Part shown: piece after piece, positions 20,479 to 25,584 of the stretch
How positions within the stretch are numbered: the first letter of the stretch is position 1
How the letters are laid out: each line of letters starts with the position of its first letter
Origin: an uncultured Bacteroidia bacterium
GTDB taxonomy: Bacteria; Bacteroidota; Bacteroidia; Bacteroidales; Prolixibacteraceae
DNA length: 64,000 nucleotides
Assembly (NCBI GenBank): GCA_903923905.1
Contig: CAIXZH010000047.1
Span: 62,001-126,000, forward strand
Direction: 5' to 3'
Made by a program: the position numbers and the translations under genes
The notes under the pieces: model-generated
The model's database searches: none
What the model saw: only the letters and a program-made list of their open reading frames with translations
What the model was told of the DNA's origin: nothing

Positions 20479-22956
20479 ATGAGAAATTTCGTTTTAACTA
20501 TTTCCATCCTCACTTTTTTGCTTTTATCTGGTTCAGGACCATTATTTGCCCAGGGGTATCCACGCGCTGATGTTACCAATATTGCCCTAAAGGATGCCAA
20601 AATTACCGGAATAATTACTGATGGAACCAGCAACCAGACTATTCCCTATGCAAGTGTTGCCATATACCACACAAAAGATTCAACTTTGGTAACCGGTGTT
20701 CTGAGTAAGGATGACGGAAGTTTTGTTTTGGATAAACTACCTTATGGTAACTATTATATGGTAGTCACTTTTGTGGGGTATAAAAAACATAAAGTCAATG
20801 AGATATTGCTGACATCTGCCAGAAAGACTGCTGCCCTTGGCCCCGTAAAGGTAACTACCTCAACTACTGCGCTAAAAGAAGTTGAAGTTGTTGGAAGTAT
20901 CCCCCCTGTGACCTACCAGATCGACAAAAAAGTCGTGAATATTGCCCAAAACATCACTGCTTCAGGAAGTACCCTCGCAGAAGCCCTTCAAAATGCACCG
21001 TCCATTCAAACCGATGTGGAAGGGAATATTACTTTACGTGGAAGTTCAAGTTATACTGTATTAATTGATGGCAGACCTTCACCAATAGCTGGGAGCGAAG
21101 CGCTTCAGCAGATCCCTGCCAACCTTGTACAGAATGTCGAACTCATTACCAATCCTTCGGCAAAGTACGAGGCTGAAGGAAGCGCCGGAATCATCAATAT
21201 TATCATGAAAAAGCAAAAGATCAGGGGCTCAAGCGGAATCGTTAATCTCACAGCCGGAACCGGAGATAAATACAGCGGTAATCTGAATCTGAGCTACAAG
21301 ATATCGAAATTTAATTTTACCCTCGGAGGAGATTTTACCGATTACAATTCGAATTTTAAAAGTCATTCGAATGTCACAGATACACTGCAGCAATCCTTAA
21401 AGAAGCAAGTCATCACAGGTTCAGGAGACTTTCACCGGAAAGGGAACGGGCTTCGGGCAGGTATTGATTATGAGATCGATGACAAAAATTCACTGACTCT
21501 GACCGGAAGTTTTGGTGATCGCACTTTCGCCCGGTCTGCAAGCGGAGATTATCATGATACCTACACCTCGCCGCTCTCCAATGTTTATTATACAAACAGC
21601 CAGACTCCTCAATTTAAACGGAATTACAAATCCATTAACTTAGATTATATGCTGAAGTTTAACACTTCAGGGCATCAGCTTTGTGCATCAGCCTATTATA
21701 CTTCAGGACCAAGTAACAATATCAGCTTATTACAGGTAGATACGACCAATGTAAGCGGGATCAAAACGGGGGGATCGCTCACTCAGCAATCAGCCCAAAA
21801 CAGTGACCAGACCGATTTCCGAACCAAAATCGATTATTCGCTTCCAATTGGTGATAAAGGTAAGTTCGAAGCCGGGTATCAGGGCCGATATATGAATAAC
21901 AACGGTTCATATCATCTTACAAACCTTGTGGGAGGTAATTGGATTGAGGATGAAGCGCAAAAGGACCTGATCAATTTTAAAGATCAGATTCAAGCCGGCT
22001 ATGCCACCTATTTAAACACAATGCCTCTTTTTGATTACCAGCTGGGGATGCGTGCGGAATATGAGAACAGGTATCTTAATCAGGAAATTCAAAATAAGGT
22101 GAACAGGATAAATCGGATTGATTTCTTCCCGACTATTCACCTGACCAAACAATTACCCTGGAAACTGCAATTACAGACCAGTTATACCCGGCGTATCAAC
22201 AGACCAATGCCATGGAATATCAATCCATTCATATTACACCTTGATCCTCAGACGATTCAGATGGGTAATGCCGGATTGCTCCCTGAATTTGCAAATTCAT
22301 ACGAGTTGAATCTGGAGAAAAAACTCAATGATGTATCCTTTGTCTCTGCTGAAGGATTTTTAAGACAAACATATGGGTTAATCCAGCAAATCAGTACTTT
22401 TGATGCTTCCTCCCAAATAACCACCAATACTTTCGGAAATATCGATCACGACCGCTCCATGGGAGCCGAGTTTATGGTTAACCTGCAACCTTTCAAATGG
22501 TTTAACCTGAATTCTTCTTTCAATATTTTTAATTATCACATGTTTGGAACTCTTGTTCCTGGTGTTGCAACCAGTACGAACACCTGGAATATCCATGTGA
22601 ATCCAACTTTCCACTTTACCAAGACGACTTCAATGCAGGTGACTTATATTTATAATGCCCCGACTATTACAGCACAGGGTACCAGGTCAGGGTTTTACTC
22701 CTCAACAATCGCAATCAAACAAAATCTGCTGAATCGGAAGGCCAGCCTGACCTTGCAGATGCAAAACTTGTTCGGACGTACGATCAACTACAACACGACA
22801 GTAACTGCAAATCAATACAAATACAGCAGCTTTCAGCGTGAGTCACAGGTTTTTCTTCTGACCTTCAGTTACCGCATCAATAATTACAGAGTAGCTCAGA
22901 ATCAGAGAAGAAGTCAGGAAGAATCAAATGGAAACAGGGAACAGGATATGGAATAA
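20479..22956 (+). CDS. TonB-dependent receptor-like outer-membrane protein (OMP_b-brl_3 type)
   Basis: 825 residues: signal peptide (1-25), a carboxypeptidase-regulatory-like domain at about 40-125 (ITGIITDGTSNQTIPYASVAIY, LPYGNYYMVVTFVGYKK), a plug domain at about 140-240 (AEALQNAPSIQTDVEGNITLRGSSSYTVLIDGRPSP and NPSAKYEAEGSAGIINIIMKK) and a barrel of the OMP_b-brl_3 group with ELNLEKKLN-like strands. Unlike SusC receptors it is short and has no SusD partner, and this group is often of unknown substrate. A strong hairpin follows, so it is a single-gene transcript. The last strand region ends in a polar tail rather than an aromatic residue. Confidence 0.85.
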   Translation: MRNFVLTISILTFLLLSGSGPLFAQGYPRADVTNIALKDAKITGIITDGTSNQTIPYASVAIYHTKDSTLVTGVLSKDDGSFVLDKLPYGNYYMVVTFVGYKKHKVNEILLTSARKTAALGPVKVTTSTTALKEVEVVGSIPPVTYQIDKKVVNIAQNITASGSTLAEALQNAPSIQTDVEGNITLRGSSSYTVLIDGRPSPIAGSEALQQIPANLVQNVELITNPSAKYEAEGSAGIINIIMKKQKIRGSSGIVNLTAGTGDKYSGNLNLSYKISKFNFTLGGDFTDYNSNFKSHSNVTDTLQQSLKKQVITGSGDFHRKGNGLRAGIDYEIDDKNSLTLTGSFGDRTFARSASGDYHDTYTSPLSNVYYTNSQTPQFKRNYKSINLDYMLKFNTSGHQLCASAYYTSGPSNNISLLQVDTTNVSGIKTGGSLTQQSAQNSDQTDFRTKIDYSLPIGDKGKFEAGYQGRYMNNNGSYHLTNLVGGNWIEDEAQKDLINFKDQIQAGYATYLNTMPLFDYQLGMRAEYENRYLNQEIQNKVNRINRIDFFPTIHLTKQLPWKLQLQTSYTRRINRPMPWNINPFILHLDPQTIQMGNAGLLPEFANSYELNLEKKLNDVSFVSAEGFLRQTYGLIQQISTFDASSQITTNTFGNIDHDRSMGAEFMVNLQPFKWFNLNSSFNIFNYHMFGTLVPGVATSTNTWNIHVNPTFHFTKTTSMQVTYIYNAPTITAQGTRSGFYSSTIAIKQNLLNRKASLTLQMQNLFGRTINYNTTVTANQYKYSSFQRESQVFLLTFSYRINNYRVAQNQRRSQEESNGNREQDME

Positions 22957-23286: not shown

Positions 23287-23294
23287 TATATTTG
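23287..23294 (+). promoter_or_regulatory. -7 box for the fluoride riboswitch-enolase transcript
   Basis: TATATTTG, a perfect TAnnTTTG. The expected start site about 6-7 nt downstream falls at 23301, exactly the first base of the riboswitch. Confidence 0.65.
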
Positions 23295-23300
23295 TAACAT

Positions 23301-23352
23301 AAGGCAATGAAGTCTGCCATAACTGCCTTTTTTAAAGGATGATGACTTCTAC
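23301..23352 (+). ncRNA. Fluoride riboswitch (crcB motif)
   Basis: A 52-nt element that aligns position for position with the known Thermotoga petrophila fluoride aptamer. Seen: P1 stem GAAGTC/GACTTC, the pseudoknot pairing GGCA with TGCC, the conserved CATAACTGCC stretch, a small P3 hairpin CCTTT-TTT-AAAGG, and the TGATG and CTACC conserved ends. The aptamer binds fluoride and turns on fluoride-resistance genes; here a crcB remnant and enolase, a fluoride-sensitive enzyme, follow. The expression platform is not clear from sequence. Confidence 0.9.
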
Positions 23353-23383
23353 CATTCAGAATCAGTTTCTTTAACTAAGAAAT

Positions 23384-23566
23384 ATGGTAAAGCCAATTCT
23401 TATTTCCGGATTCGGGAGCTTCACCGGAACAGTTCAGCAATTTTTAATTTCCAGATATCATTCAATAAATAGGTCCCCAATTATTCAGTTGGGATTGCTT
23501 AACTACGTCCATATGCTGATGTTTCCGAAAAACTTATTTGTGCCATATCTCATTTTACGCCAATAA
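23384..23566 (+). pseudogene. crcB: Truncated CrcB/Fluc fluoride channel remnant
   Basis: A 60-codon frame starting MVKPILISGFGSFTGTVQQF with LISRY next, which follows the first membrane helix of CrcB/Fluc proteins (G-x-G-x-x-G-x(5)-L-L-S-R pattern). Similarity fades after about residue 40 and the frame stops at 60, half the normal 120-130 residues; the later helices with the conserved Asn and Phe residues of the fluoride pore are missing. Its place directly behind a fluoride riboswitch strongly supports the identity. It cannot form the channel in this state. A small unrelated peptide is the alternative. Confidence 0.6.
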
Positions 23567-23609
23567 AAAGTTTATTGATCCTTTAAATTAACTTTAAAAG
23601 TAATCAGTT

Positions 23610-24890
23610 ATGAAAATCGAATCAGTTACAGCAATCGAGATTCTCGATTCAAGGGGAAACCCTACCATAGAAGTTGACCTGAAACTCGAAGACGGCACCA
23701 TTACCCGTGCCATGGTTCCGAGCGGAGCATCCACCGGGGAGCGGGAAGCATGCGAACTCCGCGACGGCGACAAAAAAAGGTATGGGGGTAAGGGTGTACT
23801 TAAAGCGGTAGAAAATGTAAACAAAATCATCGCCCGTGAGATTGTTGGAAAACTATTTTTAAATCAGCGCGAACTTGATTACTCCCTGATAAATCTGGAT
23901 GGCACAGCCAATAAAGCCAAACTTGGCGCCAATGCCATTCTTGGCGTATCCATGGCATTTGCCCGTGCCTGTGCCATAAGTGCAGAAATCCCTCTTTACC
24001 AGTATCTTGGCGGCACCAACGCCTATCTGCTTCCTGTTCCCTGCATGAATGTGATCAATGGCGGAAAACATGCAGACAACAATGTAGACTTTCAGGAATT
24101 TATGATAGCGCCTCATGGTTCAACTTCTTTTACCGAAGCGATACGTATGGGGCAAGAGGTATTCCATGCCTTGAAAGGGGTGTTGAATTCGAAAAGGTAT
24201 AGCACAGGTGTAGGCGATGAGGGCGGCTTTGCCCCTGATCTCAAATCAAATGAAGAGGCGGTGGAAGTAATTCTGGAAGCAATAATCAAATCGGGATACA
24301 AACCTGGTAATGAGATTAGTATTTGTCTTGACCCTGCAGCAAGTGAACTCTGGGAAGATGGCAAATACAAGATGTTCAAGAGTACCGGCAAATTTGTTTC
24401 AAGCGATGATATGGTCAGGTTGTGGGAAGAGTGGGTAAATCAATATCCGATTGTTTTACTTGAAGATGGTTTGGCTGAAAATGACTGGAATGGATGGAAA
24501 AACCTGACTCAGGTACTGGGTAAAAAGATTGAAATTGTTGGAGATGACCTTTTCTGTACCAACAAAGCTATTTTGCAGGAGGGGATTGAAAAGGGCGTTG
24601 CAAATTCAATACTGATTAAACTTAATCAGATTGGAACAGTTTCGGAAACGCTTGAAACCATTGAACTTGCTTACAAAAATAGTTATAACTGTTTTGTATC
24701 ACACCGAAGCGGCGAAACGATAGACAGTTTTATAGCCGACCTTACCGTGGGAATCAATTCAGGTCACCTGAAAACCGGCAGTGGTTGCCGCGGCGAACGT
24801 ATCGAAAAATTCAACCAGCTTATGCGTATTGAACGTGAACTGGGCAGCGCATCACGTTTTGCCGGGAAAAAGGCCTTTAAAAATGCTTAA
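23610..24890 (+). CDS. eno: Enolase
   Basis: Converts 2-phosphoglycerate to phosphoenolpyruvate in glycolysis; Mg-dependent and inhibited by fluoride plus phosphate. 426 residues, full length. Seen: [31 protein letters not shown], the metal and catalytic regions [31 protein letters not shown], the catalytic Lys in [14 protein letters not shown] and [15 protein letters not shown]. It lies under the fluoride riboswitch, so it is probably induced by fluoride to replace inhibited enzyme. Whether a second, constitutive enolase exists elsewhere cannot be seen here. Confidence 0.96.
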
Positions 24891-24979: not shown

Positions 24980-24987
24980 TACCTTTG
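24980..24987 (+). promoter_or_regulatory. Candidate -7 box of the ECF sigma factor gene
   Basis: TACCTTTG, a perfect TAnnTTTG, 18 bp before the start at 25006. No -33 TTG is visible at the usual distance. Confidence 0.5.
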
Positions 24988-25005: not shown

Positions 25006-25584
25006 ATGTCCGGGAACAGGGCTAATTCAACTCGAAATTTTGTAAATAGCTGCTCAGAAGTCGATTATGAAGCTGTATTTAAAACCTATTTTCTGCCACT
25101 CAGAAAGTATGCCTGCTTATTTGTCCCGGTGCAGATAGCTGAAGATATTATTCAGGATATTCTGGTCCATTTATGGGAAAACCGGGAAAATCTAATTATT
25201 CACACGTCCCTCGAAGCATACCTTTTTCGGTCTGTTTATCACCGGTGCATCAGCTCAATTAAACTTCAAAATCTCCGATCCAGGCACCTGACACAGATTG
25301 AAATCGATTTACGGCATGATGAGATGCGTTTTTTCGATTCGGATGAGAATGAGGCGATCCGTAAACTTTTCATGAACGACCTGAATGCTGAGCTGAACCA
25401 AGCCATTAACAGCCTCCCTTCGAAATGCAGGGAGGTCTTTGAAATGAGCTTTTTGCAGGATTACCGGAACAAGGAGATCAGTGAAAAACTGAAAATCTCG
25501 GTGAATACCGTGGAGAGCCATATTACCAATGCACTGAAAGCCTTGCGGAAAAAGCTTTCCAGACTAATGTTGGTATTCATTTAA
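25006..25584 (+). CDS. ECF RNA polymerase sigma-70 factor
   Basis: 192 residues. Region 2 (YEAVFKTYFLPLRKYACLFV, then AEDIIQDILVHLWENRE) binds the -10 element and core polymerase; region 4 (LPSKCREVFEMSFLQDYRNKEISEKLKISVNTVESHITNALKALRKKL) is a typical helix-turn-helix. It belongs to the Bacteroidota sigma group that normally works with a FecR anti-sigma factor and a SusC-like receptor. Here the next gene is a truncated FecR and then secreted glycan-degrading proteins, so control of the downstream carbohydrate locus is likely. No SusC/SusD pair is present. Confidence 0.9.
   Translation: MSGNRANSTRNFVNSCSEVDYEAVFKTYFLPLRKYACLFVPVQIAEDIIQDILVHLWENRENLIIHTSLEAYLFRSVYHRCISSIKLQNLRSRHLTQIEIDLRHDEMRFFDSDENEAIRKLFMNDLNAELNQAINSLPSKCREVFEMSFLQDYRNKEISEKLKISVNTVESHITNALKALRKKLSRLMLVFI

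Follow-up and report, generated by a model that had tools for sequence, protein, structure and literature searches.

The aptamer and its promoter

The window, i.e. the whole stretch of 64,000 nucleotides analysed, contains a single Rfam match above the cut-off, which was found with cmscan at 23294-23358 on the + strand and covers positions 1-64 of the fluoride riboswitch model RF01734 (50.8 bits, E 3.8e-11; the gathering score is 34 bits). The assembly (5.4 Mb, 97.8% complete) yielded no other RF01734 match. On the strength of this score the element is a fluoride riboswitch aptamer, and it lies upstream of an enolase gene (eno). The earlier note had named it correctly and its span of 23287-23352 is the same element with a promoter box added.

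P1 (GAAGTC/GACTTC, 23309-23314/23344-23349), the GGCA/TGCC stem (23303-23306/23315-23318) and P3 (23326-23328/23336-23338) were all located on the + strand, and both CATAACTGCC and TGATG are present. The stems and the unpaired residues agree with the family except for one pair, since at the base of P3 a G325.A339 mismatch (marked v in the cmscan output) stands instead of a G-C pair. The C of this pair is at least 90% conserved among 33 aligned aptamers and is replaced by A in that of the window alone; this conservation is taken from the alignment, the pattern count (C in 53/59) having misread at least three loci. The element thus resembles the RF01734 crcB motif in its full-length match above the curated score, in its stems, TGATG and 3' tail, and in preceding a gene class known behind such switches, the occurrence of enolase there being established according to a review (PMC11139923); it differs in the G.A at the P3 base and in the broken crcB that comes first downstream. 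The former statement that every conserved part is present was slightly too strong: it holds for P1, GGCA/TGCC, CATAACTGCC and TGATG but not for the base of P3. An alignment without gaps to the aptamer of Thermotoga petrophila, as the earlier note proposed, is probable.

Overlapping the first base of the match, at 23287-23294 (+ strand), lies TATATTTG, a putative promoter box that matches exactly the sequence TAnnTTTG, which we take to be the -7 consensus of Bacteroidota; it ends 8 nt upstream of the aptamer's first GG. Of 59 loci, the window included, 38 have an exact box that precedes the aptamer core by 2-14 nt, while 500 shuffles gave 0.69 loci on average and 4 at most, so that this placement is not due to chance. 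Within 60 nt upstream the exact box was present in 46/59 aptamer loci. The 59 loci consist of 48 above-threshold places (in 44 of the 393 genomes of the order) and 11 from further searches; twelve sub-threshold RF01734 matches (11 loci, L052-L062) were excluded from the box, P3-base and pairing tests. The proposal that a promoter is fitted to the first bases of the aptamer is therefore supported, the start site itself being a predicted one, and such a placement is common among the loci. No promoter was found before eno in a sigma-70 scan, which does not cover the promoters of this phylum. A second box, TACCTTTG at 24980-24987, stands just ahead of the sigma-factor gene at 25006 (PF08281) and is probably its own promoter.

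A decayed crcB gene in the leader

Eno lies downstream of the aptamer on its strand, and no intact gene separates the two. As judged from protein and DNA likeness, the leader begins with a decayed crcB: its first approx. 55 codons occupy 23384-23525 (+ strand) and carry indels plus a frameshift past approx. codon 28, and in the remaining leader up to the eno start (23526-23609) the rest of crcB and the DUF190 gene are missing. The frame from the fossil ATG, 26 nt past the aptamer, is open to 23566 (60 codons). When CrcBs from related loci were used in tblastn, 5/11 matched, in the same frame from the ATG (best E 1e-7), and a profile of 16 CrcBs gave E 3.3e-7 for the fossil frame and E 0.11 for the next frame, where the likeness continues after the shift. 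The 60-codon ORF itself had no match in Pfam.

The DNA alignment continues from the aptamer into crcB. With the leader alone, the score was 57 against the Paludibacter locus L065 (maximum of 200 shuffles 36), 43 against L158 (39) and 34 against L178 (32), while that against L175 (34, maximum 37) was not above chance. The best DNA match of the five tried was the crcB of a congener (G490; score 71, shuffles at most 37), where the order aptamer-crcB-DUF190 is kept with open frames; in this genome, which is 78% complete, such an enolase was not found. The crcB profile detected no fossils in the other short eno leaders (E 0.63 at best). An intact crcB is present beside a DUF190 gene on another contig of the same genome (C97), where a search of 8 kb found no riboswitch. 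Since a decayed crcB lies between aptamer and eno, the switch probably served the exporter first. The description of a riboswitch in front of enolase was right about the position of the aptamer, but had missed the crcB fossil in between and the fact that this eno is a second copy.

The second enolase

The gene (EnoF, 426 aa) spans 23610-24890 on the + strand and its ATG is 251 nt from the aptamer match; the product matches PF00113 (E 1.9e-118) and PF03952 (E 1.8e-57). The other enolase of the genome is encoded on contig C119 and is 58% identical. Among 107 enolases 141 columns reach a conservation of at least 97%, and the window enolase agrees at 140 of them; the motifs around S39, H159, E168, E211, D246, D320, K345, HRS373 and K396 (yeast numbering) are standard. 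The E295 motif was also located in the translation, a LEDG elsewhere being an unrelated match. By its motifs and intact frame the gene is predicted to encode a functional enolase (EC 4.2.1.11). Comparison with the L175 enolase gave dN 0.12 and dS 4.06, and dS was saturated in three other pairs involving the window; five pairs of enolases within the related genus, L180 among them, gave dN 0.009-0.015 and dS 0.27-0.47. These substitution rates indicate that purifying selection acts on the enolase.

In a sample of the family, an enolase at least 65% identical to that of the window was present in 12/100 genomes, all 12 of which have two enolases. This enolase was not found in any of 17 further genomes of the genus (12 + 5), and one of the latter five (64% complete) gave no enolase match whatsoever. 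The homologues of the neighbouring receptor gene adjoin other genes in six congeners, and no empty site could be named. In the whole order, such an enolase was found in 59/393 genomes, at 75% identity or more in 30 and at 65-73% in 29. Ten of the 18 genomes in which an enolase at least 75% identical lacks an upstream riboswitch have no other enolase, thus this type of enzyme is capable of ordinary work.

All 23 riboswitch-linked rows of a tree of 107 enolases fall in one branch of 60 rows (SH-aLRT 92, short of the starred level) that brings together Bacteroidales, Flavobacteriaceae, Ignavibacteria and Calditrichia. Of the 157 distinct enolases the tree holds 107, the 50 with lower identity being omitted; L147 (with aptamers 8 kb ahead of eno and just behind it), L123 and L144 (opposite-strand aptamer) were counted as unlinked, and no label was given to eight rows whose upstream region is truncated. 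In a second quick tree, to which three plasmid enolases were added, the 60-row branch was not exactly recovered, yet the tree constrained to hold it had the higher likelihood (p-AU 0.805); the branch is thus neither proven nor rejected. The enolases of the Adhaeribacter swui and Spirosoma linguale plasmids, which are accompanied by RF01734 and exporter genes, group with the riboswitch-linked L079 and L087 (support 70), while that of a Persicobacter plasmid, without riboswitch, was placed among the unlinked rows. The placement of the plasmid enolases argues for transfer of the unit, and the enolase branch is apparently shared and mobile.

Among the 62 rows with known copy number, a second enolase was present in the genome in 17/18 riboswitch-linked versus 20/44 unlinked cases (Fisher p 4e-4); the link was not significant on phylogenetically independent pairs (median p 1), of which there were five, too few to confirm it.

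Related loci

The order aptamer-crcB-DUF190-eno is whole in L065, L079, L146, L158, L175 and L178, where DUF190 was assigned by Pfam and crcB by likeness, with PF02537 in addition for four of the six. In five relatives with the full operon the end of DUF190 is 11-126 nt upstream of eno. L177 and L179 have a disrupted crcB, with stop codons and a frameshift common to both. This frameshift, at about codon 37, lies at six consecutive G and might reflect either decay or phase variation. L180, from the same genus as L177-L179, has neither crcB nor DUF190, and 18 nt separate its aptamer from the eno ATG. An intact crcB is present at another place in the genomes of the window, L177, L179 and L180, and among 23 genomes checked a crcB match was obtained in 20, with none in G294, G419 and G442. 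Twelve loci, the window included, have no exporter between aptamer and eno. On the tree the presence of crcB in this place changes seven times among 21 rows; crcB loss is clear only for the window, L177/L179 and L180, and at the other changes it may be supposed.

Several other arrangements were noticed. A crcB without riboswitch lies approx. 0.6-0.7 kb from the ordinary enolase on the same strand in G427, G439, G397, G415 and G450, so the crcB-enolase neighbourhood recurs. In L087 (Leeuwenhoekiella marinoflava, aptamer 2004-2064) the order is aptamer-crcB-inorganic pyrophosphatase (PF00719)-enolase, which puts the exporter and two fluoride targets in one unit. Dynamin-family GTPase genes (PF00350) follow fluoride riboswitches in L016, L027, L028, L038 and L086, the last of which (Calditrichia) has the order aptamer-dynamin-...-enolase; a paper joining fluoride riboswitch and dynamin was not found in the open-licence literature. 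In L019 (aptamer 1501-1562) a PRPP synthase gene (PF13793) begins about 680 nt behind, with no ORF of at least 60 codons listed before it.

Possible coupling of the aptamer to start codons

The start region of the first ORF is, in related loci, able to pair with the 3' strand of P1 and the tail that follows this strand. The mean energy, taken over 46 of the 59 loci, was -7.9 kcal/mol for own pairs and -6.0 for swapped ones, and none of 20000 permutations was as low; the start codons of this set were those meeting the rule, and were set by hand for the window, the short-ORF loci and L177/L179. When near-copies were removed (20-24 loci, drawn from 39 with a start within 45 nt) the median p was 0.0014 and the largest 0.008. 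The pairing is strong in L065, L175, L177-L179, L087 and five short-ORF eno leaders and weak in several other crcB loci, e.g. L005, L029 and L079. In the window, TACCAT in the 3' tail of the aptamer (23350-23355, + strand) has its complement in ATGGTA at the start of the crcB fossil (23384-23389), and it is possible that these are the residue of the start-codon pairing seen in relatives. The pairing energy here was -7.9 kcal/mol; this was equalled or surpassed by 13 of the 38 start regions of other loci, which is the chance level. The platform in the window would accordingly have decayed or be of a different kind.

The terminator scan found none on the + strand between aptamer and eno. The predicted fold of the aptamer plus leader RNA is unremarkable (z -1.55, 6/100 shuffles as low). 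A long-range pairing of CATAACTG in the aptamer with CAGTTATG at the eno start was rejected as a candidate: it has 8 perfect pairs and a single-base shuffle P of 0.04, and with the aptamers of 22 other loci the eno start pairs better in 4 cases and equally well in 2. It is kept as a lead only.

In the five short-ORF eno leaders (L026, L030, L040, L043, L164) an ORF of 20-48 codons starts 16-18 nt after the aptamer and its start pairs with the P1 strand. Four of the five have a conserved hairpin, GCTCATG..CATGGGC, before eno, as seen by eye in the alignment.

Discussion

The reading that we consider rather probable is that the switch has outlived its exporter gene, and that the window eno provides a reserve enzyme inducible by fluoride under an inherited switch. 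The unit, complete in relatives to this day, consists of a promoter, the fluoride aptamer, crcB, DUF190 and an enolase that is extra to the housekeeping one. From this unit crcB and DUF190 were lost in the genome of the window; the aptamer, the promoter and the enolase remain, with about 55 crcB codons as a fossil leader. The enolase would be transcribed from the aptamer's promoter and its level would rise with fluoride: folding of the aptamer on the ligand may free the fossil start codon or the leader for ribosomes, and the enolase behind the leader may gain by coupling or by escape from early termination. The enzyme inhibited by fluoride would thereby be replenished, and export would be left to the second crcB-DUF190 pair, which is without riboswitch. 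The fluoride response, the coupling step and the benefit are what we infer from the arrangement. Fluoride control of eno is held most likely since aptamer, promoter and enzyme have all been kept; the chance-level start pairing and the mismatch in P3 speak against it.

These same two observations would be expected if the aptamer had been left without output when crcB decayed, eno being either transcribed from the same promoter indifferently to fluoride or hardly expressed. The approx. 250 nt and the broken gene that separate aptamer from eno, with no terminator on the + strand between them, also fit such a relic. However, the other conserved parts of the aptamer and the promoter box are retained, eno is intact and conserved, and eleven other loci have an aptamer and then eno without an exporter between, so that we regard a relic as unlikely.

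It is still less likely that the extra enolase is kept as a fluoride-resistant form and not for more enzyme. This would suit the company of the gene, as such enolases travel with exporter, CLC and pyrophosphatase genes, and F374 and C393 lie near active-site motifs. Both residues are typical of the branch, beyond which a search for a resistance signature in the window enolase gave nothing, and C at the position of 393 is found in yeast enolase as well. All the catalytic motifs looked for are standard, and the same branch supplies the only enolase found in many genomes (the 10 of 18 unlinked ones mentioned above, at 75% identity or more). No second or fluoride-resistant enolase of such kind was found in the open-licence literature.

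The whole 250-nt leader might instead be an expression platform for ordinary control by transcription attenuation, its likeness to crcB being irrelevant. Enolase does occur in known fluoride-riboswitch operons (PMC11139923; Enterobacter cloacae FRM, PMC5533749), and there are the five related eno leaders with a short ORF, four of them with the conserved hairpin. But the crcB fossil is strongly supported and lies in the right place and frame, the leader has no terminator-like site on the + strand and its fold is unremarkable, which makes ordinary control a very improbable account. That the contig is foreign to the genome and the second enolase an artefact of binning, as the reported contamination of 4.54% and the lack of this enolase in all 17 congeners might suggest, is hardly credible, since the neighbouring genes have homologues in the genus (the receptor at 20479-22956 has a paralogue of 73% identity on a different contig of the same genome and is 61-71% identical to proteins of seven congeners, the transporter 70-72% to two congeners) and among the five crcB loci compared at the DNA level a congener's matched best.

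The survival of the switch under a changed client, which we prefer, can be compared with known systems. In the report on E. cloacae FRM (PMC5533749), a riboswitch-operon enolase is induced 176-fold by fluoride, the operon of island GI3 is ppaC-uspA-eno-gpmA-crcB-orf5249, and the authors refer to additional copies of the inhibited enzymes. The window shares with it a fluoride riboswitch upstream of an additional enolase, the drive being predicted here; in E. cloacae the operon also comprises exporter and partner enzymes and the induction is a measured one, whereas the window unit has neither exporter nor DUF190 and its induction is a predicted one. The fluoride switch of Pseudomonas syringae acts by translational control (PMC13273304). 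Several related loci are similar in that the P1 strand and tail can cover the first start codon, while in the window this codon is that of the fossil and the pairing is at chance. A crcB fossil under the switch, its recurrence in relatives and a shared mobile enolase branch were not found in the open-licence literature, and the part of PMC9484302 at hand contains no fluoride riboswitch-pseudogene case of such kind.

As a tentative and somewhat doubtful extension, fluoride riboswitches may have passed repeatedly from the exporter to a reserve enolase in Bacteroidota, the crcB start being kept, while the rest of the gene erodes, as a leader ORF gated by the riboswitch, by way of which fluoride would control the enolase. 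In one lineage (five loci) this would have become a fixed short ORF with its first codons pairing with the P1 strand.

The defence against fluoride is usually told as export. If the proposed reading is true, selection keeps the inducible replacement of a poisoned enzyme while the adjoining inducible exporter decays, and a riboswitch would change its client through the loss of the first gene. The full operon, the frameshifted one, the fossil and the clean deletion would then form a natural series in which the transfer of control may be tested.
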